50,856 nt of DNA from Candidatus Minthosoma equi (GTDB lineage Bacteria > Bacteroidota > Bacteroidia > Bacteroidales > Bacteroidaceae). The stretch spans positions 1-50,856 of the forward strand of contig JAGHUI010000068.1 in assembly GCA_018064885.1 (NCBI GenBank). The letters are read 5' to 3'. The position numbers and the translations under genes are program-made. Below are positions 11,087 through 50,856 of this stretch, piece by piece (the stretch's first letter is position 1; every line of letters begins with the position of its first letter). The notes below the pieces were generated by a model. The model did no database searches and was not told the DNA's origin. It saw only the letters and a list, made by a program, of their open reading frames with translations.

Positions 11087-11164
11087 TTTCATTGTTTGAA
11101 ACGTATGTTTCATTGTTTGAAATATACATTTCGTTGTTTGAAATGTACGTTTCAAACAATGAAA
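11087..11164. repeat. Array of four 15-base units at exact 21-bp spacing (unit 4 inverted)
   Basis: TTTCATTGTTTGAAA starts at 11087 and 11108, the variant TTTCGTTGTTTGAAA at 11129, and the reverse complement TTTCAAACAATGAAA at 11150. Each is separated by a 6-base spacer (CGTATG, TATACA, TGTACG). The units are themselves imperfect palindromes. It lies in the long gene-free stretch between the GLPGLI remnant and the sugar-transporter terminator. Two helical turns per unit would put all units on one face of the DNA. Function unknown. Confidence 0.85.
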
Positions 11165-11204
11165 TGTAGATGAATTGCAGGTAATCATGGAGACAAACGC
11201 CCGC

Positions 11205-11296
11205 AAATGCAGTTGACAAATACGAGTAAATGCACTTGACAAATATGAGTAAATGCAGTTGGCAAATATGAGTAAATATATTTAGCACATACGAGC
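11205..11296. repeat. Array of four 23-bp tandem units
   Basis: Units begin at 11205, 11228, 11251 and 11274. Each follows AAATGCAGTTGACAAATA plus CGAGT or TGAGT, with the first three nearly identical and the fourth degraded. The array sits 41 bases to the right of the 21-bp-period array, so two different four-unit arrays lie side by side. On the minus strand each unit carries a TATTTG that is close to, but does not match, the -7 consensus. The remaining bases 10934-11086 and 11297-11389 show no gene. Confidence 0.8.
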
Positions 11297-11389
11297 CATC
11301 AATCGTAATCGTTGTTTTTTAGCACAAGACAGGTTAATATATGAATCCAAAAAGCCAGAGAGGGGTCTTGTTTCCCATTCCAACCTTCA

Positions 11390-11428
11390 CACAAAAAAAT
11401 CCCCAGCCGAATGTATCAGCTGGGGATT
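11390..11428 (-). terminator. Intrinsic terminator after the sugar transporter
   Basis: AATCCCCAGC (11398-11407) pairs with GCTGGGGATT (11419-11428) around an 11-base loop. On the minus strand the stem is followed by a T-run (plus-strand A-run at 11393-11399). It ends the transcript of the sugar-transporter gene. Confidence 0.88.
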
Positions 11429-11461
11429 CAATGTTTTGTAGAGTTATTGAGCTCTTATTTT

Positions 11462-12718
11462 TTAGTCAACCTTAATGTCTTTGTTCACATTCTTGCAACC
11501 AACAAGGCTGTAGAAGAGGATGTAAGCGAGCATGCCGACGATGAGCCAGTATGAGTTGAGGTAGCTTACGCCCATCTGCTGAACGAGTACGAGGTCCTGG
11601 AAGAATGGCATCATACCACCACCGAACACCATAACCATGAAGAGGCCTGATGCCTTTGCTGTGTATTTGCCAAGTCCTTCTGTAGAGAGGTTGAAGATAC
11701 CACCCCACATAACTGATGTGCAGAGACCACAGAGGAAGATGAATACGCATGAGAGTGGAACCTGTGCGTTTTCAATTGTGATGAAACCGAGGTTGATGTT
11801 GAGCGTTGTTGTTACATCGCCTGTGAAGATAGCTGCTACGATCAGGGCAATGCCTACAGCAGATACCGTAATCATCTGAGCGCGAGTAGATACCCAGTTA
11901 GAAATGAATGTTGATGTGAAACGTCCAACAAGCATGAGGAACCAGTAAATGCCTGCAAGTGAGCCTGCTACGGCTGCTGCTCCTTCCCATGACTCGTGGC
12001 TGATCCATGCGTTCATCATACCTGGAGTTGCGATTTCAACGCCTACATAGAAGAAGATAGCGATGATGCCAAGGAGACAATGACGAAATGCGATAGGAGA
12101 CTTTTCGTAAGTCACATTCTTGAGGTCGCCCTGTGGCTCTTCAATCTTGATGAATGAGATGATGCCGAATGCTGCAAGGAAGATGATGATACCTGTGATG
12201 ATCAATGGTGCTACATCTGGGAATGAATCCTTTGTGAGTGTACCTACGAGGAAACCTGCAAGGATTGGAGTTGCTGTACCAGAGAGTGAGTTGAGTGTAC
12301 CGCCTGCCTGAACGAGCTGATTACCAGTGTTACCGCCACCACCAAGAAGGTTGAGCATTGGGTTTACAACTGTGTTGAGCATACATACGCAGAAACCGCA
12401 GATGAGGGCTCCGAGGAGGTAAACGTAGATGTTGCTGACGATACCAGAGAGAAGCTGAACGCCAAGACCGATTGCACCTACGATGAGGGCGATGAGGGCT
12501 GTCTTCTTGTAGCCATACTTAATGAGCATGTTACCTGCAGGAATACCCATGATGAGGTAAGCTGTGAAGTTCATGAGATTACCAGCCATACCTGCCCAGT
12601 TGTATGACATACCCCAGATGTTGCCGAATGGTGCTGCCATGTTTGTCACGAAGCTGATCATAGCGAAGATGAAGAACATCGTGATAATAGCAACCCAGTT
12701 TCTTTTTTGCTGTGCCAT
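11462..12718 (-). CDS. Sugar MFS transporter, glucose/galactose (FucP/GluP-like) type
   Basis: A 418-residue inner-membrane protein with about twelve hydrophobic segments, of the fucose/glucose-galactose:proton symporter family. The N-terminal FVTNMAAPFGNIWGMSY and the TAYLIMGIPAGNMLIKYGYKK loop between helices 2 and 3 are typical. It lies downstream of galM and galK on the same strand, so galactose (or glucose) uptake is the likely role, feeding those two enzymes. The 116-base gap to galK contains a strong stem-loop, so it may be expressed at a different level. The C-terminus KNVNKDIKVD is polar and cytoplasmic. Confidence 0.88.
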   Translation of the reverse strand: MAQQKRNWVAIITMFFIFAMISFVTNMAAPFGNIWGMSYNWAGMAGNLMNFTAYLIMGIPAGNMLIKYGYKKTALIALIVGAIGLGVQLLSGIVSNIYVYLLGALICGFCVCMLNTVVNPMLNLLGGGGNTGNQLVQAGGTLNSLSGTATPILAGFLVGTLTKDSFPDVAPLIITGIIIFLAAFGIISFIKIEEPQGDLKNVTYEKSPIAFRHCLLGIIAIFFYVGVEIATPGMMNAWISHESWEGAAAVAGSLAGIYWFLMLVGRFTSTFISNWVSTRAQMITVSAVGIALIVAAIFTGDVTTTLNINLGFITIENAQVPLSCVFIFLCGLCTSVMWGGIFNLSTEGLGKYTAKASGLFMVMVFGGGMMPFFQDLVLVQQMGVSYLNSYWLIVGMLAYILFYSLVGCKNVNKDIKVD

Positions 12719-12732
12719 ATTTATTCAGTAAG

Positions 12733-12764
12733 AGGGCTCAAGTGTTTTTAGAGTCTTGAGCCCT
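12733..12764 (-). promoter_or_regulatory. Perfect 10-bp stem-loop between galK and the transporter gene
   Basis: AGGGCTCAAG (12733-12742) and CTTGAGCCCT (12755-12764) form a 10-bp stem with a 12-base loop. In the minus-strand mRNA it ends 14 bases before the transporter ATG. The U-rich tail lies on the plus-strand side, so it is not a normal terminator for galK. It may stabilise the transporter mRNA or affect its translation. Confidence 0.6.
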
Positions 12765-12834
12765 TATTATTTTTAGTTATTAATTGTTTTTCGTGATTAC
12801 GAATTACCGAGTTTTCGTTTTTCGTTTTCGCCAA

Positions 12835-14001: not shown

Positions 14002-14140
14002 AATGTTTAGTTTAGTTTATTATAGGTTAATTATAATATTATTAATGTGTACTGATTAAAAGCACAAAAACGAAAAGCGAAAAACAATCTAAGTTATGAT
14101 GCTTGGATTATTGTCTTTCCACTTTTCGTTTATGCATTAT

Positions 14141-19700: not shown

Positions 19701-21035
19701 AATACAGAACTTGAAAGCATCTGCAACGACATCAAACTTGCCAACCACAACAAGAAGACAACCATAGCAGTATTGGGAGTCATCATACTTTGTGTTCTAG
19801 TAATCTATTTTTTTCTCCACTATCGTCACAAGCAACTGTTCATCTTCAATCTCAGACAGTTTATACAATTAATAAATAATGTGTATAGTTCTGAAGAAGA
19901 CAAACTTGGAAGCATCTTCCTGAAAAATCTCTCCGACATAAAAATGGCAGATTCTGTCTGCATGATGCTTGTGTCGCCAGAACATCCAGACCAGTTTGAT
20001 TTCTTCTTCGACGGCAAAGTTCACGACCGCAATGTATATGAAGGTCTTATGCGCACAGCCTTCGAACAGAAAACAGAAATAACAGGCATGGACAACCACT
20101 TCTATGCCTATCCGCTCTATACCCCAGGAAAGGAAGATGAGGATATATTTGGTGTTCTTGCTGTATGCTTCCGCAATGGAAAACTCACAGCAGAAGATAA
20201 GCGTATAATGAACCTCGTAACAGAGTTCCTGCGCATCCATACATATTTCTCATATAATAAGGTCAGCCAAATGAATGAGACGCTTGAACTGATGGCAGAC
20301 CAAAAGATCAGGGTAGAAAAAGAAGAACAGAATGTGTATGTTCAGAATATGATCATGGACAACTGCATGTCAACGCTGAAGCACGAAACAATGTACTATC
20401 CAAACAGAATTAAGCAGATTGTTGATACAGTTCAGAGCGGAGACAGCCATACCAGCACTCACATTGACGATATAGATGAGCTGCTCAGTTATTACAAAGA
20501 GATATTCACAATTCTCAGTTCGTGCGCCAGCAAACAAGTTGAGAGAGTCCTGTTCAAGCGTACAGCAATCCCCGCAAAAGATATTGGCGATATGACTGCT
20601 AAATCATTCCGCAAGATGGCAAAGAAGAATCTGTCTTCATCAAGCATAAAGATAGTAGGAAAAACCGATGTCAAGATACAAGGTGACAAGGTATTTATTC
20701 AAGCATTAGTTGACAACATTCTTTCCCTTTTCTTCGAGCATAATTCAGGTGGACAACTAACTGTAGATTGGAAAGATGCTGATGGTTTCATAAAGTTCTC
20801 ATTCAACGATTCCAATTACACTTACGATGAGCAGCAGATACCGCTTCTATTCTATGTTGACAGTCTTAGATATGACGAAGCAGAAGACCGTTTGCGCGGA
20901 TCACAATATATACTGATAAAGCAAATCATACGTCAGCACGATGCATTCTCCTCACGTCGAGGATGCAGAGTGTATGTGGAGAATGATGGCGAAGGAGGAA
21001 GCACATTCGTGTTCACCGTACCGATGGTAAAATAA
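16797..21035 (+). CDS. Giant TPR/GAF sensor with two histidine-kinase-like modules (DUF5112/DUF5113-like)
   Basis: A 1412-residue protein. From TTG 16797 it begins with a lipoprotein-type signal peptide (lipobox ILCSC) and then a helical TPR-like periplasmic region (to about 440). TM1 follows (about 453-474). The first kinase module comes next: H-box-like region with GITPF but Asp608 where His is expected, then an intact HATPase with N box LLDNARKY, G1 DTGHGM and G2 GFGFGLMN (about 707-830). A second membrane segment (836-856), periplasmic loop, TM3 (about 987-1009) and a GAF-like domain follow. The last module has TLKHETMYYP (His1196) and an HATPase-like fold without G boxes. DUF5112/DUF5113 assignment is from memory. 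First gene of an operon with a response regulator; an upstream ORF start would fall in the promoter. Confidence 0.85.
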   Translation: MKIKHYILSFVTVIAMIFILCSCNRSTESERSEIDSLNTLSYTRKYASLDEAQKYLDEILSKHEGTSYKDGIYEAYINAGNIQGMAMNYDSARVCYNMVLDNSENDLLLGIADVGMMSVCLMTSQSKEFYDYRYDAQERLSRVSDEQELMTDHQKLLWNSVRAEYHFVSTNYFLKMRQNEGVAEEIDWLDENLPTFSNDTTLLSTYLMIKSLYSVKDGRTEETTDFQRRTLFRLLTMSKQANNLYFESIALCSIARSILYYGNFRPSGQALLEELYNEKFDDDNLASSLANKAYDIGATYGNMFIESNALLTLSDYYLQRGEYDYALAELEHALQLVNIHHKTMNHHSNNQDGKPVAKALISKHKSDILYTYTQNEDSLSTEMKWILNPNVVCVADWMLSIREQLSIVYGAMGMKAESDYNHNIYFDILDATRQDQHAQQQQDQLQSEERFLNILLVSFVLITAGLVWIILIYTKRSQKEHDRKVNMLSDVIMICKKMTTVLSDEFSDEEELTGLLHECVDEDVKQLFPQYADEDWSSADATTLSGLDRELLRILQVFFQWIEKTGSQYVRSVEEQQKLESETYVLSKRFEENKRLYIEKLASMSIVDGITPFLDRALHEVCKLKNGKCATDVDVANCLTYLSELIDKINDYNNVLGHWVKIRKGMVTLNVENFALQPLFETMKRGAKSFDIKGVSLKVNDTNGVVKADKSLTIFMMNTLLDNARKYTPQGGSVTLSAEETPEYIEISVIDTGHGMSAEDVDTINNSKVYDSSKIGSTGEHSSDIKQNKGFGFGLMNCKGIIGKYKKTNAMFNVCEFGVESTIGKGSRFFFRLPKGVLRMLSCLIFCIFTAINVFANNNLDMAAVYADSVFKANVEGNHEKALLFADTAIYHLNQYYLECEPDGKNLMTLNKGNMAEISLWKQGFNTDYNLIIGLRNEIAIAALALNQNGLYHYNSEVFTRLYILSSTNTELESICNDIKLANHNKKTTIAVLGVIILCVLVIYFFLHYRHKQLFIFNLRQFIQLINNVYSSEEDKLGSIFLKNLSDIKMADSVCMMLVSPEHPDQFDFFFDGKVHDRNVYEGLMRTAFEQKTEITGMDNHFYAYPLYTPGKEDEDIFGVLAVCFRNGKLTAEDKRIMNLVTEFLRIHTYFSYNKVSQMNETLELMADQKIRVEKEEQNVYVQNMIMDNCMSTLKHETMYYPNRIKQIVDTVQSGDSHTSTHIDDIDELLSYYKEIFTILSSCASKQVERVLFKRTAIPAKDIGDMTAKSFRKMAKKNLSSSSIKIVGKTDVKIQGDKVFIQALVDNILSLFFEHNSGGQLTVDWKDADGFIKFSFNDSNYTYDEQQIPLLFYVDSLRYDEAEDRLRGSQYILIKQIIRQHDAFSSRRGCRVYVENDGEGGSTFVFTVPMVK

Positions 21036-21081
21036 CGAAAACGATAACGAAAACGATAACGAAAACGAAAACGAAAACGAA
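21034..21081. repeat. Eight hexamers AACGAA/AACGAT filling the sensor-regulator gap
   Basis: Eight perfect-period 6-base units start within the stop codon of the sensor gene (TAA 21033-21035) and are followed by A-rich sequence up to the regulator start at 21109. Units 2 and 4 are AACGAT, the rest AACGAA. Similar A-n-CG tracts occur near 12805-12830 and 14065-14085. Confidence 0.85.
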
Positions 21082-21108
21082 AAAAAGAAAACTAAAAACT
21101 ATACAATA

Positions 21109-21828: not shown

Positions 21829-22525
21829 TTATCAGAAATACATAAGACGCACATTAAAGTCCTTTTTCGTTGGCACTGCAGTCTCGCTCTTAGTGCTGAT
21901 GCTGGCATCATGGATTGTCAGCATCTATGTCGATGGAGTGAACGGACTGCTCAGTGCAAACGGAATACGATGGATGGTGGCACACATCTCCAGCAATTTC
22001 AGCACCCTGCCCTTTGCCCAGATCATCTTAGGGCTAATAGGCGTTAGCGTGCTGCTCGAATCCGAGCTGCTGTCAGCATTCCGCAAGCACACATCATTAA
22101 AGCAGAAACATGCCCTACGCATCACGATTGTCTCAGGCATAGTCATCCTGTGCCTCTTCTCATGCCTTCTGTTCCTGCCAGATGCTGTGCTTCTAAGCTG
22201 TTTCGGAAATATTGAAGATTCTCCTTTTACCGAAGGACTGTACGGTCTCATAGTCCTCTTTGTCGTTCTCGTGTCCAATATCTACGGATTCACCTCAGGC
22301 AAGTTCGTCACCCTCTACGATGTCTTCACTGCCCATGCCGTTTATCTTCGCAAGACAGCCAGCTCATTCATAATCCTGTTCCTTGCCAGCCAATTCGTGG
22401 AATGTCTTGACTACACCGACATTCTTCTTTATATGGGCAACGAACAAACGATACTCCTGATCCTTAAATGCTGTTTGTATTACATCCCTATCCTTCTTCT
22501 TATATTTCAGGAAAACAAATCATGA
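21818..22525 (+). CDS. Half-length AbgT-like membrane protein
   Basis: A 235-residue membrane protein with about six hydrophobic segments. The stretch GLLSANGIRWMVAHISSNFS followed by the ILGLIGVSVLLESELLSA segment resembles the N-terminal part of AbgT-family transporters (p-aminobenzoyl-glutamate transporter), which are about 500 residues long. Only the N-terminal half is represented and the rest is absent or unrecognisable. Start: ATG at 21818 inside the last codons of the regulator; a TTG at 21800 is also possible but less likely. Being coupled to a two-component pair, it may be a membrane signalling partner rather than a transporter. It converges on the HTCS gene and shares 6 bases (22520-22525). 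Confidence 0.7.
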   Translation: MTIDYQKYIRRTLKSFFVGTAVSLLVLMLASWIVSIYVDGVNGLLSANGIRWMVAHISSNFSTLPFAQIILGLIGVSVLLESELLSAFRKHTSLKQKHALRITIVSGIVILCLFSCLLFLPDAVLLSCFGNIEDSPFTEGLYGLIVLFVVLVSNIYGFTSGKFVTLYDVFTAHAVYLRKTASSFIILFLASQFVECLDYTDILLYMGNEQTILLILKCCLYYIPILLLIFQENKS

Positions 22526-25500
22526 CTTCTCCGCACCTTTCTGGTATTCAGAAGGTGACACGCCATAGAGGGCTTTGAAGTTTGTGGAGAAGGAAGAGAG
22601 CGACTTGAATCCTGTGGCTACGCTGACACCTGTGATGTCAAGTTTCTTTTCTGAAAGGAGACGGGCTGCTTCTTTCAGACGAATGTATTTAAGGAAATCT
22701 CTTGGTCCCTGTCCTGTGAGATCTTTCATCTTGCGATAGAAGTGGGCACGACTGATGCCAACCTCATCAGCTATCAATTCTACAGAAAGCTCAGGATTGT
22801 CCATATTCTTGTTAATCACCTTCATAACACGCTTCATGAGGTTTTCATCGGCCGATTCGAGTTCAATCTTCGCAACGTCTTCTTCATGAATCTGTTCGCT
22901 CTTGAACTTGCCATGAATCAGGCGGCGGTTATTGATAAGTCCCATTGCTGTTGTATGAAGCACATCTATGTTGAATGGTTTAGACATGTATGCATCTGCT
23001 CCATTGGAGATACCGATGATGCGGTCTGCGTCGCTTCCTCTTGCCGTAAGCAGCATGACAGGAATGTGATTTGTGTTGAAATTTGACTTAACTTTCTGGC
23101 AAAGAGTCAATCCGTCCATCACAGGCATCATTACGTCAGAGATAATCAAATCAACAGCATGATTGTTTCTAACAACATAATCCCATGCCTGCTGACCGTT
23201 GACGCACTCCACGATATTCATGTCGCTGCCAAGTTCCTGACTGAGATACTTGCGAATCGGATCGTAGTCCTCTACAATGACCACATGCTTCATGTTGCCG
23301 CCTACAGCGTCATCAGCAATTTCATTGATAATTGGTTCTACATTGGCGCGGACATACTTCGTTGGAGTCTCCATGGTCTTTGCTTCCCTCATTCTATCGA
23401 TAGTGGAAAGGATGCGATTGCAATTCTCCTTCATGAGCGAATAGTTCTTCTGGCGCTCAGAATTGCTGTCCGAGCTGATGAGTTTGTCCAATGGAGCCAT
23501 GACAAGTGTCATAGGTGTGCGGACATCATGACTGATATCCATGAAGAACTGTATTCGAGCTTCGTTCAGTTCCTGTTCTTGTCTGTGGCGCTCAATCACT
23601 CTTCGTGCCTTCACCTGTCTTCTAACATAATGATATACAAGCCAGATGATAACACATATAAGTATGAAATATATGATTTTAGCATATATTGATGCATACC
23701 ATTCAGGATGGATTGTCACGCTGATTTCCCTTTCCTCGCTCGTCACGCCGAAAGCCAATGCCCTGATCTTTATTCGGTAATTGCCAGGCTCCATATTATC
23801 AAAAAGAATCCTGCCGCTATTGCTGCCTTGGTTTCTCCATTCGCCATCGTCAATGCTGTATTCAAATGTGACATGCTGATTGCTCAAACCTTCAACGCAG
23901 AGCTCAATGGCAAAATGATTGTCGGAACTGCAAAGGTTGATTTCTGACACATCATCAAGCACATCTTCAAGAATATCATAATAGCTGGATTTGTCGCCCT
24001 TGTGAACCACATTGCCATTGACAACAAGATCTACGAATTTCAATTCCAGCATCTTACCCTTTCCTTGTTTATTCAGCAGAGTGCTTGGATTGAAGTATGT
24101 AATTCCACTGATGCCGCCAAAATACAGGTTTCCATTTGCAGAAATGAGCGCACCTCGGCTAAATTCGTTATCCTGCAAGCCATCGTCGGAGAAGAAGTTT
24201 GCGAATGTTTCCTTCTTTGTGTCCATGCAGGAAATACCATTGTCTGTGCCAATCCATAGCTTATCGCCATCAACATACAAAGAGACAACGCTGTTTATAG
24301 GCATACCAACTGCCGTAGTATATCTTTTGGTATTCAGCCCATTGCATTCCACGCAGAAAAGTCCATCGTTTGATGCAGCCCAGACATATTTTCCATCTTT
24401 GCTTGCTGCAATATGTTTTATAGAATAACCAGCAAGTATTTTTTCTGTTTTCTGTTTAATTTGTCCTTCGCCATCAATCTTGCAAACAGTGAGACCATCG
24501 CTTGTTGCCACATACAAAATGTTTTTGCTTCTCAGAATGCTATAAACCCAAGGATTACCGTATTCCTTCACATTATTGGCATCAGATCTGTCGGTCATGT
24601 ATTTGATAATCTTTCCAGTAGCATAATTGTAGTAATAGAAACCATTACCCATGGATGCTATCCAGAAACCATTTTCACTTTCTCTAAATATGTCGAAAAT
24701 TCTGTCTATCTCCTTGGTCAGCAGAGAGAATTTCCCATCTTTCATCTGCCAGAGACCTTCAGTGAAAGTGCCAAGAAGTATCGTGCTGGCTGCTGTCGAA
24801 GAAGATTGAGAAGACATAGGCTTGACAGGATAAACAACGGTGAAGACACCAGGCATGCCAGGAGTGCTTTTCTTGTTCCAATGTGTTGATGCTGAACCAT
24901 CTGCATTCATGAGATACAATCCGTCATTGTCTGGCGCAACCCAGATTTTTCCATCATTTGCTTCAGCCATGGCAAACACAGAATTTGTTCCGATTGTGTT
25001 CTTTGTGATGGAATGACGACCGACATTCTGAAATGCCGACTGCGTGTTAGGACTCATCATCACACCCTTCCAGTAAATGCCCACCCACACGTTGCCGTAG
25101 CTGTCGCAAATAGCATCCTTCACATTGCTTGTACCAAGGTCGAAATCATTGATCTTGATATCACTCATGGAAACTGTATAGCTTTTCTCGTTATAGATGC
25201 GCAAGCCGCCTCCATCGGTACAAACAAAGACAGTTCCATTGTTGCCGGCATTCAGCCCATACACATCGCCTCCGAGCTTTGCTGCGTCAGCAACAAGCTT
25301 GAACGAATCAGACCTCTTGTCGTATGCATACAATCCATTGCGCCAAGTAGCCACATACATATTGCCAGACTTTGACTCACACATCTTAACAGCTCCATCC
25401 GCTTCAGGATAATTCTTCATCTTATTGTTTGCCAGCTTCTTGTAAAGCTTGCCTTCGCTATTGATTATCCATAGCTGCGAAGATTTGGCAGATGCAGATT

Positions 25501-26092
25501 TTTCGGATGCAGGAGCATAATTATGAGTTTCGAGAATCACAATAGGGTTCAAATCTCTTTCGCCTGTATTGTATTTCGTTTGTCTTCTGATCACATATTT
25601 ACTATTGCCATCAGCCATCACTTCGCCATTTCCATATCCAGCAAAAGTGACAAGCACATGTTCTTTGCCCTCATCCTTCACACGATAGACGCCGATGATG
25701 CGATGCACCATTGTGTCGTTTGATTCGCTGAGAATAGGCACATTTTCAAACTTATCTGTGGCATAATCGTACATCATCATACCCTTGCCTGTGCCGACAA
25801 GCACATGGTTGCGGTCATAGTCAAGCACACAGGTTGCATCATCGCCGCATAGCGAATGAGCATCATTCTCATCATGGCGATACACATTCATTTTCACTCC
25901 ATCATATCGGTTCAAACCATTCTGAGTAGTGATCCAAATGTTTTTGCGGCTATCTTCATATATGTTTCTAATACAAGAATTTGACAATCCTTGCTTAGAG
26001 TTGAAGAATAGTGTATTTTGGGCATAAGAATTATATGTGCCTAAAAAATAAGATATTATTGCTAGTATAAGTAAAAAACAGTTTTTCTGCAT
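22520..26092 (-). CDS. Hybrid two-component system regulator (HTCS) without an HATPase domain
   Basis: A 1190-residue membrane regulator. Order: signal peptide (1-25); periplasmic two-propeller sensor (about 26-740) with repeated IWxxTxxGL/DG motifs; Y_Y_Y domain (about 745-805); one membrane segment; DHp with ISHDVRTP, His855; receiver (935 to about 1055) with Asp986 in IISDVMMP; AraC-type DNA-binding domain (about 1085-1185). Normal HTCS proteins have an HATPase of more than 100 residues between DHp and receiver. Here only about 25 residues separate them, so the ATP-binding domain is missing although the frame is open. It lies downstream of the GH43-GH98 genes on the same strand, with its own promoter, and probably regulates them on sensing a glycan fragment. 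Phosphorylation would need a kinase in trans. Confidence 0.92.
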   Translation of the reverse strand: MQKNCFLLILAIISYFLGTYNSYAQNTLFFNSKQGLSNSCIRNIYEDSRKNIWITTQNGLNRYDGVKMNVYRHDENDAHSLCGDDATCVLDYDRNHVLVGTGKGMMMYDYATDKFENVPILSESNDTMVHRIIGVYRVKDEGKEHVLVTFAGYGNGEVMADGNSKYVIRRQTKYNTGERDLNPIVILETHNYAPASEKSASAKSSQLWIINSEGKLYKKLANNKMKNYPEADGAVKMCESKSGNMYVATWRNGLYAYDKRSDSFKLVADAAKLGGDVYGLNAGNNGTVFVCTDGGGLRIYNEKSYTVSMSDIKINDFDLGTSNVKDAICDSYGNVWVGIYWKGVMMSPNTQSAFQNVGRHSITKNTIGTNSVFAMAEANDGKIWVAPDNDGLYLMNADGSASTHWNKKSTPGMPGVFTVVYPVKPMSSQSSSTAASTILLGTFTEGLWQMKDGKFSLLTKEIDRIFDIFRESENGFWIASMGNGFYYYNYATGKIIKYMTDRSDANNVKEYGNPWVYSILRSKNILYVATSDGLTVCKIDGEGQIKQKTEKILAGYSIKHIAASKDGKYVWAASNDGLFCVECNGLNTKRYTTAVGMPINSVVSLYVDGDKLWIGTDNGISCMDTKKETFANFFSDDGLQDNEFSRGALISANGNLYFGGISGITYFNPSTLLNKQGKGKMLELKFVDLVVNGNVVHKGDKSSYYDILEDVLDDVSEINLCSSDNHFAIELCVEGLSNQHVTFEYSIDDGEWRNQGSNSGRILFDNMEPGNYRIKIRALAFGVTSEEREISVTIHPEWYASIYAKIIYFILICVIIWLVYHYVRRQVKARRVIERHRQEQELNEARIQFFMDISHDVRTPMTLVMAPLDKLISSDSNSERQKNYSLMKENCNRILSTIDRMREAKTMETPTKYVRANVEPIINEIADDAVGGNMKHVVIVEDYDPIRKYLSQELGSDMNIVECVNGQQAWDYVVRNNHAVDLIISDVMMPVMDGLTLCQKVKSNFNTNHIPVMLLTARGSDADRIIGISNGADAYMSKPFNIDVLHTTAMGLINNRRLIHGKFKSEQIHEEDVAKIELESADENLMKRVMKVINKNMDNPELSVELIADEVGISRAHFYRKMKDLTGQGPRDFLKYIRLKEAARLLSEKKLDITGVSVATGFKSLSSFSTNFKALYGVSPSEYQKGAEKS

Positions 26093-26123
26093 AACTATTG
26101 GTATTAGTATGGTAAATCAATGG

Positions 26124-26155
26124 CAAAGTTAATACAATTTCTGAAACCCTACAAA
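26124..26155 (-). promoter_or_regulatory. Promoter of the HTCS gene
   Basis: The minus strand carries TTTG (plus-strand 26152-26155), a 20-base spacer and TAACTTTG (26124-26131), an excellent match to the Bacteroidetes promoter. The start codon is about 30 bases downstream. The four-unit 23-bp array begins 36 bases upstream of the -33 box. Confidence 0.7.
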
Positions 26156-26190
26156 TAATTAAAACAAAAACTGTAATATCGTACTATAAC

Positions 26191-26272
26191 ATTACCTCGT
26201 AATCACTCTCAGCGTTACCTCGTAATGCATCGTATAATTACCTCGGAATGCATCGTTGCATTACCTCGTAAT
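26191..26272. repeat. Four palindromic units ATTACCTCGTAAT at exact 23-bp spacing
   Basis: Units start at 26191, 26214, 26237 and 26260: ATTACCTCGTAAT, GTTACCTCGTAAT, ATTACCTCGGAAT and ATTACCTCGTAAT. Each is an inverted repeat ATTAC/GTAAT around CTC. Spacers of 10 bases vary. The array lies between the GH98 terminator and the HTCS promoter, so it could be an operator array for a regulator of the HTCS gene. Confidence 0.85.
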
Positions 26273-26280
26273 TAGAATAG

Positions 26281-26315
26281 AAAAAAAGAGTGGAAGATCT
26301 TCACAGATCCCCCAC
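26281..26315 (-). terminator. Terminator of the GH43-GH98 transcript
   Basis: On the minus strand GTGGGGGATC (plus-strand 26306-26315) pairs with GATCTTCCAC (26290-26299) through ten pairs, two of them G-U, with a 6-base loop. A T-rich tail follows (plus-strand A-run 26281-26287). It separates the enzyme genes from the HTCS gene. Confidence 0.75.
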
Positions 26316-26383
26316 CCTCAGATAGAATGAATTTTTGATAGATAATTGTCTATCGATTATGAAAAACTGTTTTTACTTATGAA

Positions 26384-29300
26384 TTACTTTACAAAAATCT
26401 TCTTTGTTGTGCCATCCTGCAAACGGATGATGTTAATGCCTTTCTGGAGTGATGTCTGCTTTGCACCTGTGATGCTGTATATGCCTCGTGGAGCATTGAT
26501 GAAGTTATCAGATGGTGCAGAAATGGCAGAAGGATCTGACATTGCGTTGATTTTACATTCGAGAAGAAGGAACTCGTCAAAGCCTGCAACCTTGTCAAGG
26601 TTTGTGAAACGGATGATGTAGTCGCCCTTTGTCGCAATGTCGAAATCAAGTGTGTATTCCTTTGATGATGTGACTGTAGCAGCCGAACTGCCTCCTGCAT
26701 TTGGCAGAGCGAAGTTGCTGGCAACGGATGCGATCTCGTTGCCGGAAGCATCAAGAATCTGAACTGAATATTTTGGAGCTTCCTTCCATGCTGCTGTTGC
26801 GTATGTCAGCTTGTAGCTTCCAGGCTCAAGTGTGAGAGGATAAGCTTTCTGCTTTCCATACTCTGCATAACCTTCACGCCAGTATAGAGCCTTGCCCTGA
26901 TAGCCTGTGAAACCATCGAATGTGCGGCAGCCTGATGAATATGAGTTAGGATATTCGTGAACGTCATTGTTCTCCTGGATACATCTCCATCCTGCTGGGA
27001 TTGTGCCTGCAAGAACTTTTGAGAAATCAAGGTTATAGACAACGGATTTGTCCATGAATACAGGGCTGAGAGTTACATTGTCATCAGGCATGATGAATGT
27101 ATTGTCATCAGCAATAGTGATCTTTCCATGAACGATTGTCCAGCCAGACAAAATGTAGCCCTCGTCAGGAATTACGGTAAGTGTAACCTTCTCGCCTTCC
27201 TTGGCAGAGTCAACGTCAGCAACTACGTTTCCATGCTCCATGTTGCGGAATGTGATGCCATACTTCTCGTCTTCAACGCCAGCAGGAGTGTATGTCACAT
27301 TATCAATATACATTGAAACACCGCCTGCATTTGCAATCATCAATGTGTTGTTGCCTGCTTTCAATGTAGCGTTGAATGAAACGATATTCCACTGATTTGC
27401 ACCAGTCTTTGGGCAGTTGAGAGTCTTTCTTGAACCGCTATTTATTGTTGCGGCAAGATTTGCATTTCTGCTGGTATTGTTGTAGCGAACACTGATTCTG
27501 TAGTCGCCGCCTTCAGCAACCTTGATGACATGCTTCAAAGCGCCAGCTGTGTTTGTGCCCATGTCCATGAAGCCGTTTCCTGCATGTCCGTGAACATTTG
27601 GATACCATCCGTATGGATCTGTCACACAACTCTTTATGCTCTTGAAGTCCATATCTTCGGCTTCGATGGTGATAGCTCCCTTGTATGGTTCTGGCTGCTT
27701 TGGAAGATCGTCTGCAAGACTCTTCTGCTCAATGGCATCAGTAAGTCTGTCGGTTGCATTTCCGGAACAGTTGATAGTGATGTCAACAGGTCCCATGTGC
27801 TTCACGCTCAGAATGTAGTGACTTTTTTCTGCATTATATTCTGCTGTAACTGTTGCTACTGCCTTGCCGCGCTTCTTGAATGTGTAGGTAGGCTCAGCAG
27901 TTGCACCAACAATGGTAATCTTGTCAATGACAGCAGTAGTTGTGTCAGTTCTGTAGTTGTTGAGATAGAAATCGATATGGTCAGCATATTCGCGAACCAG
28001 ACCGCTGCTAAGACAAGCATAGTCGAGAAGAAGGCTGTCGCAGGTGTTGTACTGCAATGGGATGTTTCCGTATGTGTGCACCTTCTTCATGTAAGTGTGA
28101 GGATTGTATGTAACAAGCTGATTGCGATAGCGATTTACATACATATCACCTGTGCTGACCTCAGGATAGTACTTATTGAGCTGGTCAACTTTCTTCGCCT
28201 GAGAGCTCCACTGTGTAGTGTAGGACGCCTTCTTTATCTGAAGAGGAATGTTTTTAGCAAGATCATCAAGATAGTTCACACCTACAGGAATGGCACCATA
28301 GCGGCCAGTCTTCTTGAAATAGCAGTAGTTGTTCATCCATGTGCCATCACCCTTGTTGAATGGATCGTCCATCTTGTAGAGACCATTGTAGAGATCGCCC
28401 CAAGCAGCATATTTCTGCTCGTCGTTGCCGTTTGTCACATTATTGAGAACGAACACCTTAGTCTTTTCAACAACTTCCTCACGGCTTGGGATGTAGAGGG
28501 TTCCATCAATAATTTTGCGGAACATATCAATCCAAGCATTGTCGAAGCCAGGGAATGTGCCCCAGTTGCGGCGTGTGTAGCCATCGACTGTTGAATTGTT
28601 GAGATTCTGGAAGTCTTCTGTCCAGATAAGCTCAGGACCATCCCAAACAGCACCACCGTTCACACAAGTCTGTTCCATTACGGTTCCAATACCAGCAGCA
28701 ACAGGATATTTCTTGCCATGCTTCTCGCCGAGAATAGCATCGAGCGCACCGTTCCAACCGCAGTTGTCATAACGTACACCATAGTTCTTTGCAAGACCAG
28801 ATACAAAAGGCGACCATGTAACACTCTCATTATTATAAAAACAAGAAGATGTGGTATATTTGTAGAGCCAAAGCATTGCCTCAGGGTATTCTTTGCAGGC
28901 AGCCAAGAGATCCTTGTTGCGCTTCATCATGCCTACAGGATTGAGCGGATGTGACCAGATGTTTCCGCAGAAGCTGACAGTGAGGAAACCTCCATATTTG
29001 TGTGCCATAGGAACGAGCTTGGCAAACAGGGCAATACGTGATGCCTGTGAACTTGAGCTCTTGTCGTTTGGCTCATCAAAGCCCCAGAACTGCTCAGCAT
29101 AGTTCCAACCGAGGAAGTTTGGAAAACGCTTATAGAAATACTCGAATGTCTCAAGGTCATCATCCTGTATATGAGTATGTCCGCCACTTGCAGGCTGACA
29201 TGTGAACCACATGCCATTCTGCTGGCATACAGAGCCCCATGACTTGTATGTCTTGACAGCATTTTCTGGCATCTTGTAAACATTTCTTTCTGTGTCGTAC

Positions 29301-29503
29301 TGACAAGAAAGAGAGAGGTTCATAATGACGTATGGACGTACGTCTTCAGGAATGAGATTGATGATTTTCTGTGGATCAGCCTTGTTCCATACATCAACAT
29401 GGATGAGCCATGCTGGATGCTTAGAATCAATAGGTCGGCGTTCCTGAGCATTCATTGCCAGAACGAAAAAAGAAAGGATAATTAGGGTGAATATCTTTTT
29501 CAT
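26384..29503 (-). CDS. Glycoside hydrolase family 98 enzyme with carbohydrate-binding modules
   Basis: A 1039-residue secreted enzyme. A signal peptide (1-20) is followed by a GH98 catalytic region: HVDVWNKADPQKI near 35-47, then IPEDVRPYVIMNLSLS, and YAEQFWGFDEPND near 135 with likely catalytic acids. Then come a CBM6/35-like module opening with TIEAEDMDF (about 605-735), a bacterial-repeat/InlB-like domain (about 740-815), a beta-sandwich domain (about 818-985), and a tail GIYSITGAK ... GINIIRLQDG resembling a T9SS sorting signal. Known GH98 enzymes are endo-galactosidases on blood-group glycans or endo-xylanases on complex arabinoxylan. The GH43 partner favours the xylan role, as an inference. 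Last gene before the terminator; 41 bases after GH43. Confidence 0.88.
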   Translation of the reverse strand: MKKIFTLIILSFFVLAMNAQERRPIDSKHPAWLIHVDVWNKADPQKIINLIPEDVRPYVIMNLSLSCQYDTERNVYKMPENAVKTYKSWGSVCQQNGMWFTCQPASGGHTHIQDDDLETFEYFYKRFPNFLGWNYAEQFWGFDEPNDKSSSSQASRIALFAKLVPMAHKYGGFLTVSFCGNIWSHPLNPVGMMKRNKDLLAACKEYPEAMLWLYKYTTSSCFYNNESVTWSPFVSGLAKNYGVRYDNCGWNGALDAILGEKHGKKYPVAAGIGTVMEQTCVNGGAVWDGPELIWTEDFQNLNNSTVDGYTRRNWGTFPGFDNAWIDMFRKIIDGTLYIPSREEVVEKTKVFVLNNVTNGNDEQKYAAWGDLYNGLYKMDDPFNKGDGTWMNNYCYFKKTGRYGAIPVGVNYLDDLAKNIPLQIKKASYTTQWSSQAKKVDQLNKYYPEVSTGDMYVNRYRNQLVTYNPHTYMKKVHTYGNIPLQYNTCDSLLLDYACLSSGLVREYADHIDFYLNNYRTDTTTAVIDKITIVGATAEPTYTFKKRGKAVATVTAEYNAEKSHYILSVKHMGPVDITINCSGNATDRLTDAIEQKSLADDLPKQPEPYKGAITIEAEDMDFKSIKSCVTDPYGWYPNVHGHAGNGFMDMGTNTAGALKHVIKVAEGGDYRISVRYNNTSRNANLAATINSGSRKTLNCPKTGANQWNIVSFNATLKAGNNTLMIANAGGVSMYIDNVTYTPAGVEDEKYGITFRNMEHGNVVADVDSAKEGEKVTLTVIPDEGYILSGWTIVHGKITIADDNTFIMPDDNVTLSPVFMDKSVVYNLDFSKVLAGTIPAGWRCIQENNDVHEYPNSYSSGCRTFDGFTGYQGKALYWREGYAEYGKQKAYPLTLEPGSYKLTYATAAWKEAPKYSVQILDASGNEIASVASNFALPNAGGSSAATVTSSKEYTLDFDIATKGDYIIRFTNLDKVAGFDEFLLLECKINAMSDPSAISAPSDNFINAPRGIYSITGAKQTSLQKGINIIRLQDGTTKKIFVK

Positions 29504-29545
29504 AACTTATAACTTATATCATATAATTCATAACTTATAACTTAT
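29501..29545. repeat. 17-base direct repeat in the GH43-GH98 gap
   Basis: CATAACTTATAACTTAT occurs at 29501-29517 and again at 29529-29545, 28 bases apart, filling the whole gap between the two enzyme genes and overlapping the GH98 ATG and GH43 stop. The tract is made of ATAACTTAT-like units. Confidence 0.75.
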
Positions 29546-31110
29546 CAATCATGCTGTGAATAGTGGAACCAGTCAACATCTACAAAGCCGCCTGTCTGCT
29601 TTGTGGCATAGTTGAAGATGGCGAACTTTGAGCCCATGAACATTCTGCGATAGTCGAACTGCATCTTATGCTGATGCTCGAATGTGGTGAAGTTCTTTCC
29701 GTCTGTGCTGTATGCGAATGAAGCAAGGTCTTTTCTTGGATTGAAATCTGCATTGATCTTGAGATAGATGCTCTTAAGTGATTTCTTGTCAAGAGTGATG
29801 ATCTTAACATCTTCTACATCAGAGCGATCTATGCTCTTGTCACGATTGAACACGGACTTCTCTTCAGAGAGTGAAAGTGTCCAGACATTGCCCTTTCTGC
29901 GAATGTTTAGGATGCCGCTATCTCCGTTAAATGCTGCAAAACCGCAAACATCGCCATCCTTCATCTTGCGAACATCAATCTTGATGATGCCCTCGCAGAA
30001 AGTTCCTTCCATACGCTGTGTGATGGTGTTTGGAGCAACAAAGATATTGTTAACAACACGGGCTGTTGTGAGACGCAGGTTGCCTTTCACCATCTTCCAA
30101 GCAGAATCGATTGGATTATGGTTCCATTGCCATACAAGCTTTGGCTTTTCTCCGTCAAACTCATCGGAATCAACAACGCCTTTCTGCTGAATATGGCTGA
30201 TGCTCATATCGTTAGGAATGTTGCCGTTCTCATCGCCAAGCATTGGCCAATCGTCAATCCAGCGTACTGGCATAAGACATGGTGTGCGACCTATACCGCC
30301 TCTGTCCTGGAAAATGACAGCATCCCATTTATCGTTAGCACCCTTGACGAGACATCCCTGACCTACACCGCCGTAAGTCTCAAAAGGAGTTTCAAGGATA
30401 ACCTTTTTCTCGTATGGACCTTCAATCTTGTCTGCACGATAGCATACCTCGCGGCGAAGTCTGCCTGGAATGCTCCAATCCATGCTGATCATGCAAAGGT
30501 AGTATTTGCCATTGCGCTTGATGACTGAGCTGCCTTCCAAAAGACCACGCTCATCGCTATCACGCTCAAACGTGCGCATGTGTGGTCCCTTTGGCTCAAA
30601 TGTTTGAGGGTCAAGTTCCTGAAGGTCGCCTGTACCATAGAACATCCAGACACGGTCGTCATCATCGAAAAGAAGACTTCCATCGTGGAAATGCGGAGGA
30701 CGGGCAACAAGTGTCCAAGGACCTTCTGCCTTGTCAGCAGAAAAAACAAATCCCTTGCCTGGAGCGCCATTGGCTGTGAACCATACCCAGAACTTGCCTT
30801 TATGATAACGGATGCTGCTTGCCCACTGGCCTTGACCATAAACAGTTTTATTGTCCTTCAAGTCATAGCGGTCGCCATCCTCAATGCGGTCAAAAACGTA
30901 TGAGATAACTTCCCAATGTTCCAAGTCGGAACTGCGCATGATAGGACCTCCAGGCATAAGGTGCATGGTGGTGCTAATCATATAATAATATGTTCCGTCA
31001 TAGCAGAGGGAAACATCAGGAACGTCAGCGTCAATAATAGGATTTCGATACTGAGAGAATGCCAGCATTGAACTGAGCAAGAGAAATAAGGATAAAATGG
31101 TACGTTTCAT
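29545..31110 (-). CDS. Glycoside hydrolase family 43 protein with C-terminal beta-sandwich
   Basis: A 521-residue secreted enzyme of the five-bladed-propeller GH43 family, whose members are mainly arabinofuranosidases and xylosidases. The signal peptide is 1-19. RNPIIDADVPDVS (22-34) carries the catalytic base Asp, HFHDGSLLFDDD (near 140) the pKa-tuning Asp and LLEGSSVIKRNGKYYL (near 190) the general-acid Glu. The second half (from about 320) looks like the concanavalin-type domain common in GH43 enzymes. It is the first gene of a two-gene unit with GH98. No SusC/SusD pair is present in this window. Subfamily and substrate cannot be fixed from reading alone. Confidence 0.9.
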   Translation of the reverse strand: MKRTILSLFLLLSSMLAFSQYRNPIIDADVPDVSLCYDGTYYYMISTTMHLMPGGPIMRSSDLEHWEVISYVFDRIEDGDRYDLKDNKTVYGQGQWASSIRYHKGKFWVWFTANGAPGKGFVFSADKAEGPWTLVARPPHFHDGSLLFDDDDRVWMFYGTGDLQELDPQTFEPKGPHMRTFERDSDERGLLEGSSVIKRNGKYYLCMISMDWSIPGRLRREVCYRADKIEGPYEKKVILETPFETYGGVGQGCLVKGANDKWDAVIFQDRGGIGRTPCLMPVRWIDDWPMLGDENGNIPNDMSISHIQQKGVVDSDEFDGEKPKLVWQWNHNPIDSAWKMVKGNLRLTTARVVNNIFVAPNTITQRMEGTFCEGIIKIDVRKMKDGDVCGFAAFNGDSGILNIRRKGNVWTLSLSEEKSVFNRDKSIDRSDVEDVKIITLDKKSLKSIYLKINADFNPRKDLASFAYSTDGKNFTTFEHQHKMQFDYRRMFMGSKFAIFNYATKQTGGFVDVDWFHYSQHD

Positions 31111-47064: not shown

Positions 47065-47087
47065 TCTTCAGAAATACAATAAAAAAC

Positions 47088-47126: not shown

Positions 47127-47128
47127 TA

Positions 47129-47692: not shown

Positions 47693-47732
47693 TTGTCATT
47701 GTTATTTTCAGCAAAGTTACAAAGAATTTGCT

Positions 47733-47740
47733 TATCTTTG
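47733..47740 (+). promoter_or_regulatory. -7 box of the PAP2 gene
   Basis: TATCTTTG lies 18 bases upstream of the ATG at 47759. It excludes the further upstream in-frame TTG at 47693 as the start. The -33 box is weak. Confidence 0.5.
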
Positions 47741-47758
47741 TACGTTTTTATAGAAAAT

Positions 47759-49072: not shown

Positions 49073-49077
49073 AACAT

Positions 49078-49149
49078 ATTAGTCTTATAAGACCTATTAG
49101 CCCCATTAGTCCAATTAGCCCCATTAGTCCAATTACACCAATAAAACCT
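49078..49149. repeat. Eight 9-base units (ATTAGTCCA/ATTAGCCCC type)
   Basis: Units of exactly nine bases start at 49078 and continue to 49149. ATTAGCCCC and ATTAGTCCA alternate in the centre and the units decay toward both ends. The tract fills the gap between the PAP2 stop and the next ATG (49159). Similar nine-base tracts are, from memory, widespread in Bacteroidales intergenic DNA. Confidence 0.85.
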
Positions 49150-49158
49150 CATACCCCC

Positions 49159-49713
49159 ATGGATCAAAAACAATTAGAATACCTCGATTCCTATCAGCAG
49201 AATCTCACCCAGCATCTCCTGAAAATGCTCACAACCATGCAATACCTTGACGGACAGCTGCTTGAAACGCCAGACATTAGTGACAAATGGCACGATGTGG
49301 CGCCATCCTACGTCGCAGATGCCGTGAAGGAAATAGCACAATACCCAAATGTTGCCCTTGGCTGGGCAATGTACTTAGGCATGGCTGTTGCACGCTACTG
49401 GGACGAAGACTGGAGCATCTACGGCAACGTGCCAAACCTCTACGAGTACATTCGCGACAAGCGCGGATTCGACTACATGGACGAAGTTGTTCGTGGAGAG
49501 ATTCTCATGCTCAAGAACAAAGATTTCGATGAAGCAGAAAAGCTCGTCCAGGCATGTTCCCAGCAAGTGCTCAACAAAATACGCTACGAACAGATAGAGC
49601 CACAAAGCCCACTTGCCTTCCACGCATACGCACGCAGCATCGAAACATTATACAAAATGGGAGCTGCTGTAGAACTCAAAGCATTAGGCTATAAGTTTGA
49701 GAAAATAAATTAA
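49159..49713 (+). CDS. Conserved hypothetical protein (soluble, helical)
   Basis: A 184-residue cytoplasmic protein that I do not recognise. It has no signal peptide or membrane segment, looks mainly helical and is rich in Tyr, Gln and Leu. Notable segments are WAMYLGMAVARYWDEDW near 74-90 and YEYIRDKRGFDYMDE near 98-112. No catalytic motif is visible. It lies just before dus (27-base gap) and after the nine-base repeat, so it may be co-transcribed with dus. The ORF has normal codon use and is very probably real. Confidence 0.75.
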   Translation: MDQKQLEYLDSYQQNLTQHLLKMLTTMQYLDGQLLETPDISDKWHDVAPSYVADAVKEIAQYPNVALGWAMYLGMAVARYWDEDWSIYGNVPNLYEYIRDKRGFDYMDEVVRGEILMLKNKDFDEAEKLVQACSQQVLNKIRYEQIEPQSPLAFHAYARSIETLYKMGAAVELKALGYKFEKIN

Positions 49714-49740
49714 TTACATCTTAACTTTTAACTCCACACC

Positions 49741-50658
49741 GTGCTCCCAATATATTTCGCTCCACTACAAGGCTATACAGAAGACGCCTATCGCCGCCTG
49801 CACCACAGCAATATCGGTGGTGTAGATGCATACTTCACACCTTTCGTCAGATGGGAACATGGCGGAGTGCGCTCCAAGGACATGCGCGACATACGTCCAG
49901 AGTTCAACTCCGGCGTGCCACTTGTTCCGCAAGTTATAGCATCATCAGCAAAAGAACTGCAATCCCTTCTTGATGTTCTTCTTCCGCTTGACTACAAGCA
50001 TATTGACATCAATATGGGATGTCCATTTCCGCTTCAAACACGCCATGGCAGAGGCGCAGGCATCCTTCAGCATCCAGAGGCTGTAAAAGAAATTTGCAAA
50101 GTCATCAAGGAACATCCACAGATTGAGTTCTCCGTTAAGACGCGGCTTGGATTGGAAAGCAACGACGAATGGAAGCAGATTCTGCCAATTCTAAACGATA
50201 CACCTCTGAAATTTATCATTCTCCATCCTCGCATCGCCACACAGCAATATAAAGGCACGGTAGATATGGAAGCTTTCAAAGAGTTTCTCAACGCATCCGC
50301 TCATCCTGTAATCTACAATGGCGACATCAGCAGTATTGAAGACATACAAAACATTGAAAAGCAATACAATGTGGCAGGCATAATGATAGGCAGAGGACTG
50401 CTGGCACGCCCCACTCTTGCACAAGAATATAAAACAGGAAGCACAATTGACTACAAGACCTTGCTTCGCACCATCAAGGACATCCACTCAAAACTCCTTG
50501 AGCATTACACAAATATCATTCCGAACGAATCCCAGCAACTTGCAAAGATCCGCACCTATTGGGACTTCATGGAAGAGACTATCGGACGCAAGCAATGGAA
50601 AAAGATCATTAAAGCAGGCAATATGAAAAACTACCTCATTGCCGTAAACAGTTTATAA
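49741..50658 (+). CDS. dus: tRNA-dihydrouridine synthase
   Basis: A 305-residue flavoenzyme that reduces uridine to dihydrouridine in tRNA D-loops. APLQGYTEDAYR at the N-terminus is the FMN-binding strand. DINMGCPFPLQTRHGRGAG near 100-118 holds the GCP motif and the glycine-rich loop. SVKTRLG and ILHPRIATQQYKG follow, and GIMIGRGLLARP is the phosphate-binding end. The ORF starts at GTG; no in-frame ATG lies near. It is slightly shorter than most DusA/B proteins (about 320-340) and resembles the DusC-like short group. Which tRNA position it modifies is not clear. Confidence 0.92.
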   Translation: MLPIYFAPLQGYTEDAYRRLHHSNIGGVDAYFTPFVRWEHGGVRSKDMRDIRPEFNSGVPLVPQVIASSAKELQSLLDVLLPLDYKHIDINMGCPFPLQTRHGRGAGILQHPEAVKEICKVIKEHPQIEFSVKTRLGLESNDEWKQILPILNDTPLKFIILHPRIATQQYKGTVDMEAFKEFLNASAHPVIYNGDISSIEDIQNIEKQYNVAGIMIGRGLLARPTLAQEYKTGSTIDYKTLLRTIKDIHSKLLEHYTNIIPNESQQLAKIRTYWDFMEETIGRKQWKKIIKAGNMKNYLIAVNSL

Positions 50659-50695
50659 TTGACATCTTTTCTGTAACATCAAAACCCGAAAACAC

Positions 50696-50726
50696 TTGAC
50701 AAATTCAATGATTTTTTGTAACTTTG
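50696..50726 (+). promoter_or_regulatory. Promoter in front of the terminal palindrome array
   Basis: TTG (50696-50698), a 20-base spacer and TAACTTTG (50719-50726) match the Bacteroidetes promoter well. The expected start is near 50733, about 35 bases before the first unit of the array. There is no ORF between the promoter and the window edge. Confidence 0.7.
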
Positions 50727-50732
50727 CATAGT

Positions 50733-50856
50733 ATTCCATAGAAACAGGAATAAATCCATACAAACCAGACAAAGCTTTTGTCTAATGAATCAAAAGCTTT
50801 GTCCAACGAGACAAAAGCTTTGTCGCATGAGCCAAAGCTTTTGTCTCGTTTTTTTT
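50733..50856 (+). ncRNA. Candidate small RNA or attenuator leader made of four palindromic units
   Basis: A transcript from the promoter at 50696 would run into four 15-base units and end at a hairpin (50810-50824 with 50831-50845, 6-base loop) followed by TCG and eight T to the window edge. That is a promoter plus terminator with no coding capacity, so either a roughly 120-base RNA or the leader of a gene beyond the window. Extent is inferred. Confidence 0.4.
50768..50845. repeat. Four palindromic 15-base units at exact 21-bp spacing (two orientations)
   Basis: GACAAAGCTTTTGTC starts at 50768. Variants follow at 50789 (ATCAAAAGCTTTGTC), 50810 (GACAAAAGCTTTGTC) and 50831 (GCCAAAGCTTTTGTC). 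Six-base spacers separate them: TAATGA, CAACGA, GCATGA. Units 1-2 and 3-4 are inverted relative to each other. The geometry of 15 plus 6 bases, four times, is the same as at 11087-11164, although the core is unrelated. Confidence 0.88.

Follow-up and report, generated by a model that had tools for sequence, protein, structure and literature searches.

Several systems of repeated sequences in bacterial genomes can be compared with the elements reported here, the 'palindrome quartets' of Candidatus Minthosoma equi (Bacteroidaceae), of which three lie in contig JAGHUI010000068.1; this whole contig of 50,856 bp (C59), one of 114 in a 3.51-Mb draft genome, is the stretch of DNA that was analysed and is called the window below. 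What is said of published systems in this text follows excerpts of the papers cited. In bacterial interspersed mosaic elements (BIMEs), repetitive extragenic palindromes (REPs) are regularly spaced and alternate in orientation (PMC3733652; PMC2817692). BrickBuilt of Porphyromonas gingivalis is an intergenic miniature inverted-repeat transposable element (MITE) with 23-nt repeats, 19 copies in one strain and promoter activity (PMC4596501), and PINSR is a 188-bp repeat with 177–184 copies in Prevotella intermedia/nigrescens, described as having no terminal inverted repeats (PMC4755523). The FopS family of Bacteroides comprises 14 paralogous small RNAs with sigma-ABfr promoters and a terminator (PMC11697453), and the capsule locus of P. 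gingivalis contains a 77-bp inverted repeat that can form a cruciform and is bound by an HU protein (PMC3969353, PMC8757827).

While intergenic repeat families are usually defined by their sequence, the quartets keep their number of units and their register across a bacterial family but not their letters. The arrays A, C and D of the window belong to a class of elements that occurs across the Bacteroidaceae, dispersed and mostly between genes. The core of a quartet, about 86 bp long, consists of four palindromes of 13–15 bp with a period of exactly 21 bp or, in the C type, 23 bp, and as a whole it is close to a mirror image of itself. The core word is specific to a copy family or a species and the geometry is the part that is kept. 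Many copies also have outward-directed motifs with a period of 23 bp, located on one side or both at fixed distances from the core.

In detail, core A (11083–11168, forward strand) contains four 15-bp palindromes (11087–11101, 11108–11122, 11129–11143 and 11150–11164) with a period of 21 bp, of the TTTCATTGTTTGAAA type in units 1–3 and inverted in unit 4; they are joined by linkers of the form YRTAYR and the whole core is nearly dyad-symmetric. Core C (26191–26272, reverse strand) consists of four 13-bp palindromes ATTAC-nnn-GTAAT beginning at 26191, 26214, 26237 and 26260, a period of 23 bp; it lies between a hybrid two-component regulator and a glycoside hydrolase family 98 (GH98) gene (22520–29503). 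Core D (50768–50845, forward strand) has four 15-bp palindromes of the GACAAAGCTTTTGTC type at 50768, 50789, 50810 and 50831, a period of 21 bp.

The original prediction, made from the letters of the window, had named these three arrays together with a fourth, B (11205–11296, forward strand), as four intergenic arrays of one geometry with unrelated cores. Their positions and periods were correct, with four 15-mers at 21 bp in A and D and four units at 23 bp in B and C (13-mers in C), and A, C and D are indeed the three palindromic ones. The words of these three differ as claimed, but B and C both carry ACGAG/CTCGT at 23 bp, and B is not an independent array: its four 23-bp units with ACGAG/ATGAG, directed away from the core, form the right arm of the A element, an arm whose length varies among copies. 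The left arm (11045–11079, reverse strand) contains two CTCGTATTT motifs, 23 bp apart and again directed away from the core.

The excess of such arrays over shuffled sequence was confirmed by a core-blind scan for four palindromes (6-3-6) at one period, in which no likeness between the units was demanded. In 1,196,539 bases of the host genome outside the window, on long contigs already known to have some matches, 24 loci were found at 21 bp, 6 at 22 bp, 7 at 23 bp and 0–3 at the other periods from 16 to 30 bp, compared with 1, 0, 0 and 0–3, respectively, in one Markov-shuffled copy. Two relatives (385,099 bases, from stretches including known matches) gave 4 loci at 21 bp and 2 at 23 bp, against 1 and 0 after shuffling. 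A scan with stricter arms, covering 450,359 bases including the window, found one four-unit array where each of five shuffles had none, and 10 three-unit arrays where the shuffles had 1–6.

As the arrays of the relatives had been obtained with a four-unit model, a scan seeded with three units is the fairer test of the number four. At 21 bp it found 22 loci, 19 of which were called as four units; calls of five (L088) and six (L148) were over-extended when inspected by eye, and the sole three-unit call looks unrelated. Seven loci at 23 bp were called as four (four loci), three (two) or five units (one), and the remaining periods gave two loci at 22 bp (seven and four units), one at 24 bp and none at 20 bp. 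Extra units were also looked for in 90 four-unit arrays, a set without the host's three-unit A copies (L263–L265) and without an A copy from which 1 bp is deleted. The call remained four in 85 of them; five units were called in four arrays, in two cases through a register slip as judged by eye, and six units in one.

Among relatives the geometry was found far from the letters of core A. A BLAST search with this core gave matches in only three of 60 relatives, and the four loci concerned contain another palindrome in the same geometry as in A. A covariance model (R1) built from A and these four loci, to which three relatives contributed sequences, matched 14 of 45 genomes of the genus, the host included. 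The R1 loci that were read, 28 (some of them one site on both strands) and 40 (seven from the host), show unrelated words in the same frame, such as TTCCAA..TTGGAA, ATTCAT..ATGAAT, TTTTACGTCGTAAAA, TATCCT..AGGATA, TTGCTAA..TTAGCAA and TTCAGCAGTGCTGAA. A second model (R2) was made from 53 gap-free cores, to which 73 distinct arrays had been reduced by leaving out L210, L212, L213, L243, L247 and L256, which differ in register or unit number, L211, and 13 of the 18 distinct A cores of the host to limit redundancy. Of 399 family genomes, 104 from 18 of 30 genera matched R2 as carriers of the 4 × 21 bp quartet, the host among them; at least nine of the 104, again including the host, had contributed sequences to the model. 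Eighteen of 20 family loci that were read are quartets in register; one of the carriers is the Bacteroidaceae metagenome-assembled genome RGIG7333 from water-buffalo cecum.

When R2 was applied to a draw from the whole order, 13 of 393 genomes were matched, nine of them outside the family. All four loci of one of these (G059) look like quartets, and G712 (L310), G560 (L315) and G687 (L311), with one locus read each, have longer 21-bp palindromic tandem arrays. Also with one locus read each, G519 was a weak candidate, and G503, G612, G547 and G545 look like other repeats. Unit number and period thus do not vary freely within the family, as they would if the shared geometry were due to chance, while three genomes of other families carry 21-bp palindromic arrays with more units. 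The suggestion that a constant number and spacing with a free core marks a real class has therefore held, both throughout the host genome and across the family.

Palindromy is kept through paired changes. In the 53 cores, all 24 local pairs and all 42 full-length dyad pairs have changed on both sides, with a covariation of 0.440 against 0.200 in shuffles for the former and 0.455 against 0.237 for the latter; since shuffling leaves relatedness in place, these figures are not to be read as probabilities. An alignment of 20 sequences in which A predominates gave weak results in the paired-change tests. Complementarity of the centre triplets exceeds expectation between units 1 and 4 (0.61 vs 0.41) and does not between units 2 and 3, and the linkers mostly keep the form YRTAYR while the cores change. 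The arms have a period of 23 bp with largely free sequence between the motifs, and in an average of 46 flanks of A and E cores (E being a further host family described below) the arm motif stands at fixed distances from the core. Flank autocorrelation at lag 23 is 0.391 in the host (A and E cores) and 0.331 in the relatives, where lag 22 comes next (0.306), against a mean of 0.28, and G-rich flank positions lie at near-identical outward distances in both sets. From this agreement it follows that the phase of the arms is tied to the core despite the differing letters.

These features suggest that the quartets are a dispersed and partly mobile DNA element which may serve as a platform for four protein dimers near gene ends, a reading that we derive from sequence comparison and hold to be about evenly balanced between right and wrong. 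Each palindrome would be a dimer site in double-stranded DNA, and the 21-bp register would place four dimers on one face of the helix. The arms would then carry the complex outward to give a symmetric nucleoprotein platform, which near the 3' ends of genes might act as a boundary for transcription or supercoiling, and the elements would spread as non-autonomous repeats through their genome, each of them specific to one protein. If so, the quartets point to a DNA-binding system of several dimers in common gut bacteria, which may play a part at transcription boundaries or in the organisation of the chromosome.

The genomic position of the arrays bears on this proposal. In three relatives (G006, G016 and G027) a quartet lies at one shared site, where the neighbouring proteins are 84–97% identical. 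At this site the core has an identity of 0.79–0.86, compared with 0.25–0.58 (gaps counted) in the flanks and 0.68–0.79 at the gene end, so that here the core has survived in place while the surrounding intergenic DNA was replaced. The arrays of relatives found in gaps that could be classed (n=28) lie in 18 tandem, 7 convergent and 3 divergent gaps, against 114, 43 and 71 in the background of 228 gaps from the host genome; the shortage of divergent gaps has a p of 0.011 in a test that used a crude caller of open reading frames (ORFs) and a background from the host genome only and that counted some orthologous sites repeatedly. Seven of 35 arrays stand outside this count, six overlapping a predicted ORF of at least 90 amino acids (aa) and one having no left neighbour.

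Strong DNA gyrase sites are associated with BIMEs, and the shortage of divergent gaps, the position-locked arms and the persistence of YRTAYR linkers under changing cores would also fit wrapping sites of such a kind, recognised by shape, in which the flexible YRTAYR steps and the symmetric arms are what matters. We regard this as very improbable, since copies of one family share their core letters within a genome and since paired changes preserve the palindromes, something not required if shape alone were recognised.

In the host genome the quartets fall into several copy families. Family A has 26 loci: 22 with four units (including the copy with the 1-bp deletion), three with three units and one cut by a contig start; usually units 1–3 share one orientation and unit 4 is opposite. 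Family C has seven loci, six reading as four units and the seventh (C70) being degenerate and called as three in the three-unit-seed scan. Mostly three of its units point one way and one is inverted, all four being alike in the window copy; shorter weak matches to C occur as well, e.g. in C30, and among 44 other genomes of the genus one (G033) has a weak match. Family D has 23 loci, with four units in all 20 uncut ones (three of these with a further, stray match beyond the array) and the other three cut by contig ends. Outside the host, D was found at six loci of the relative G022, and in the other 59 relatives nothing was seen beyond a promoter-like match in G034. A further core, E, was seen at seven loci, where inspection by eye gave four units in six and three in one.

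Most D copies share a layout in which a promoter is followed by a leader that varies in sequence, then by the core and a T-run and, where the contig continues, by a 23-bp array in which ACGAG/ACGGG recurs at 23 bp. In the window the promoter lies at 50696–50726 (forward strand) with the pattern TTGAC-18-TAACTTTG, which we take to be the Bacteroidota-type promoter motif, and a terminator-like T-run (50849–50856, forward strand) follows the hairpin of units 3 and 4 at the end of the contig. The promoter pattern is present in 21 of 23 D loci and the T-run pattern in 17 of 23. On the outward strand, the ACGAG motif occurs next to core A, follows D and accompanies E on one side or on both, and TACGAG pairs at exactly 23 bp occur 22 times across the genome against 0.13 expected. 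The E copy L154 and the D copy L053 have a common tail beyond the core (by eye), and because they do so despite their different cores, core and arms appear to behave as modules.

Next to the left arm of A in the window is a short hairpin, CTCGCAATTAGCGAG (11024–11038, reverse strand), of which an identical or near copy stands beside the A copies L002, L008, L009 and L010, with more hairpins after it; right of the core in L008, L009 and L010, as at window position 11024–11038, a conserved string of hairpins follows the ACGAG arm, the last one being T-rich. The relative G016 contains two copies of a promoter-leader-22-bp CGGCAA array (L192 10127 and L194 6942) as well as three GAGTTAACTC palindromes at 22 bp ending in a T-run (L192 8353); these 22-bp arrays are possibly further core families.

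In a rival explanation the quartets would be primarily MITE-like, non-autonomous mobile elements devoid of a host function, the palindromes being transposase sites and the geometry that of a transposase complex. Near-identical cores at unrelated sites (e.g. L014, L016 and L019, with the same core letters), the sharing of arms between core families of one genome, the mutually inverted arms of A and the position of several D copies at contig ends, as expected of repeats that break an assembly, all speak for it, and BrickBuilt is a precedent for a MITE with 23-nt repeats (PMC4596501). We nevertheless consider this explanation rather unlikely, because neither a target-site duplication nor a sharp inverted end was seen by eye in the A and D copies and because the core was kept in place over three species while its flanks changed. 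In addition, Y1, the one transposase family that was searched for, is absent from several array-bearing genomes.

RNA hairpins tolerate G.U pairs on one strand only. Mismatches in the full dyad are of the T.G type in 175 and of the C.A type in 158 cases, with a per-array skew of p 0.18, and promoter motifs over 97 arrays point inward in 35 and outward in 55 cases, where the genome-wide expectation, coding DNA included, is 15.6. Since the full dyad is free of strand skew and inward promoters do not exceed outward ones, the class was taken as double-stranded DNA, and the favoured interpretation, as far as the letters can indicate it, is that it works in this form, while D and certain E copies may be transcribed as well. 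The idea that the arrays encode a transcript of repeated hairpins, one of the two possibilities in the original prediction, is not supported for the class by these two comparisons, and an inward promoter common to the class was rejected for lack of enrichment over outward motifs.

A narrower form of the RNA hypothesis would make the quartets multi-copy small RNAs whose hairpins titrate or serve an RNA-binding protein, like FopS in Bacteroides. The promoter, leader, four hairpin units and T-run of D fit this hypothesis, as do a weak local wobble skew and the frequency of the inward promoter motif in E (4 of 6 loci) and in the relative G068 (5 of 9), D having it in 21 of 23. Only 3 of 18 A loci have it, however, and although inward and outward motifs both exceed expectation, the former are not in excess over the latter; moreover, the full-length dyad pairs show no strand skew and the window has no Rfam match at gathering score, the presence of FopS in that release being unchecked. 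As an account of the class, small RNAs therefore seem improbable.

A number of observations weigh against reading the class as a conserved four-dimer DNA platform. With regard to the platform itself, the analysis yielded no binding protein, and periods of 21 and 23 bp cannot both match the phase of the helix exactly. Mismatches in the local hairpins are weakly skewed between strands (p 0.03, and 0.003 on a larger, less independent set), and D, with its inward promoters and terminator-like end, and E, with its inward promoters, may act as RNA. The constancy of the number is affected by the four-unit models that yielded the arrays of the relatives, which are biased to four, and three-unit and six-unit copies exist. 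In as many as 295 of the 399 family genomes nothing reached the threshold, in a search whose filters lose weak matches and in which 11 candidates were scored per genome. In one R2 match (L289) the palindromes recur at about 22 bp, and two family matches of the order-wide draw (G070 and G099) do not look like quartets. Another match (L278; G350, approximately 1501–1587) consists of four 21-bp units, three direct and one inverted, none of which is a local palindrome, and here the three-plus-one order may be more important than local palindromy. The conservation in place concerns one site, most of the 93 loci compared sharing no neighbour gene across genomes, and a second site (G003/G035) is uninformative because its flanks are as conserved as its core. 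Six of the 35 arrays of relatives overlap a predicted ORF (at least 90 aa). Finally, the host's own copies with both neighbours give a less clear picture of gap type, with 11 tandem, 4 convergent and 3 divergent for A and 7, 4 and 2 for D.

If the platform reading is extended to its limit, the quartets could represent a class of sites defined by geometry alone, with four dimer sites and phase-locked arms, in which the word is swapped together with a fast-evolving protein while a role at the level of the chromosome stays constant throughout the Bacteroidaceae. Replacement of this kind would be comparable to that of PRDM9 and its hotspots, which turn over together, but we think it unlikely that the whole of this picture applies.

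The window also contains other short repeats. Nine-base repeats of the ATTAGTCCA/ATTAGCCCC type (49078–49148) form an intergenic minisatellite just before a 184-aa ORF starting at 49159, approximately eight repeats of the hexamer AACGAA lie at the stop of a 1426-aa ORF and beyond it (21034–21083), and an array of the heptamer ATAACTT (29502–29552) lies immediately upstream of the start of the GH98 gene. The periodic hexamers GGTTAG, TCAACT and AACGAA were rejected as an array signal, as they derive from short simple repeats.

As for the relationship to described systems, a literature search, from which most subscription journals fell outside, yielded no description of a four-unit palindrome class in the excerpts obtained. 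The 77-bp inverted repeat of P. gingivalis is not an equivalent, being described in the portions cited as two copies with a transcript encoded between them and not as a four-unit array (PMC3969353, PMC8757827). FopS appears to resemble D in layout only, i.e. in having multiple copies, a promoter and a terminator; it differs in its length of about 65–70 nt, its single-stranded 5' part and its one terminator hairpin, and the excerpted account does not describe a palindrome quartet (PMC11697453). PINSR shares with the quartets its intergenic position and restriction to a lineage (PMC4755523), a comparison made by description and not by sequence, and it may be a relative of them.

BrickBuilt is closer, being intergenic with a 23-nt period and with CTCRTRTG in its published repeat, which is similar to the CTCGTATT arm motif of the quartets (PMC4596501). 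However, it is a head-to-tail minisatellite with a leader, a tail and terminal inverted repeats (TIRs) like those of the IS5 family, and a four-palindrome core is not part of its description as excerpted (PMC4596501). Membership in BrickBuilt was rejected as well on the basis of the four published TIR words, which, with one mismatch allowed, occurred once among 46 A and D loci, and there over 600 bases away from the array.

Membership in the system of REPs and their associated tyrosine transposases (REP/RAYT), which is defined by a Y1 (IS200-type) transposase whose gene usually has the repeats on either side, was also rejected, since the array-bearing genomes G068, G016, G027, G066 and G007 (drafts 83–98% complete) have no PF01797 match at E≤0.001. 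The host has one Y1 gene over the cut-off (on C35), with no A, D or E core motif within 3.15 kb around it. In the window, the ORF at 9144–9707 was dismissed as a Y1_Tnp candidate, its match being below the cut-off; it lies behind a gene for an extracytoplasmic function (ECF) sigma factor, and its translation looks like an anti-sigma factor, a label given from the letters. A Y1-transposase-like gene of 449 aa at L198 508–1857, with a TCTTTGGGAACTTTTC stretch repeated on both sides, is unrelated to the quartets.

Like the quartets, REPs and BIMEs are dispersed intergenic palindromes found mostly downstream of genes, and in both cases a species-specific sequence is combined with a common plan (PMC3733652; PMC2817692). 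The quartets differ from them in their as a rule exactly four units with a 21-bp period, in arms with a period of 23 bp and apparently in the lack of a consistent GTAG/CGTC tag. By eye, GTAG occurs at the outer ends of A, after the array and not before each palindrome, and some E linkers contain CGTC; no constant tag of the REP type was seen by eye in cores other than A and E. Judged by analogy, REPs and BIMEs are nevertheless the known elements whose way of working would most resemble that of the quartets.

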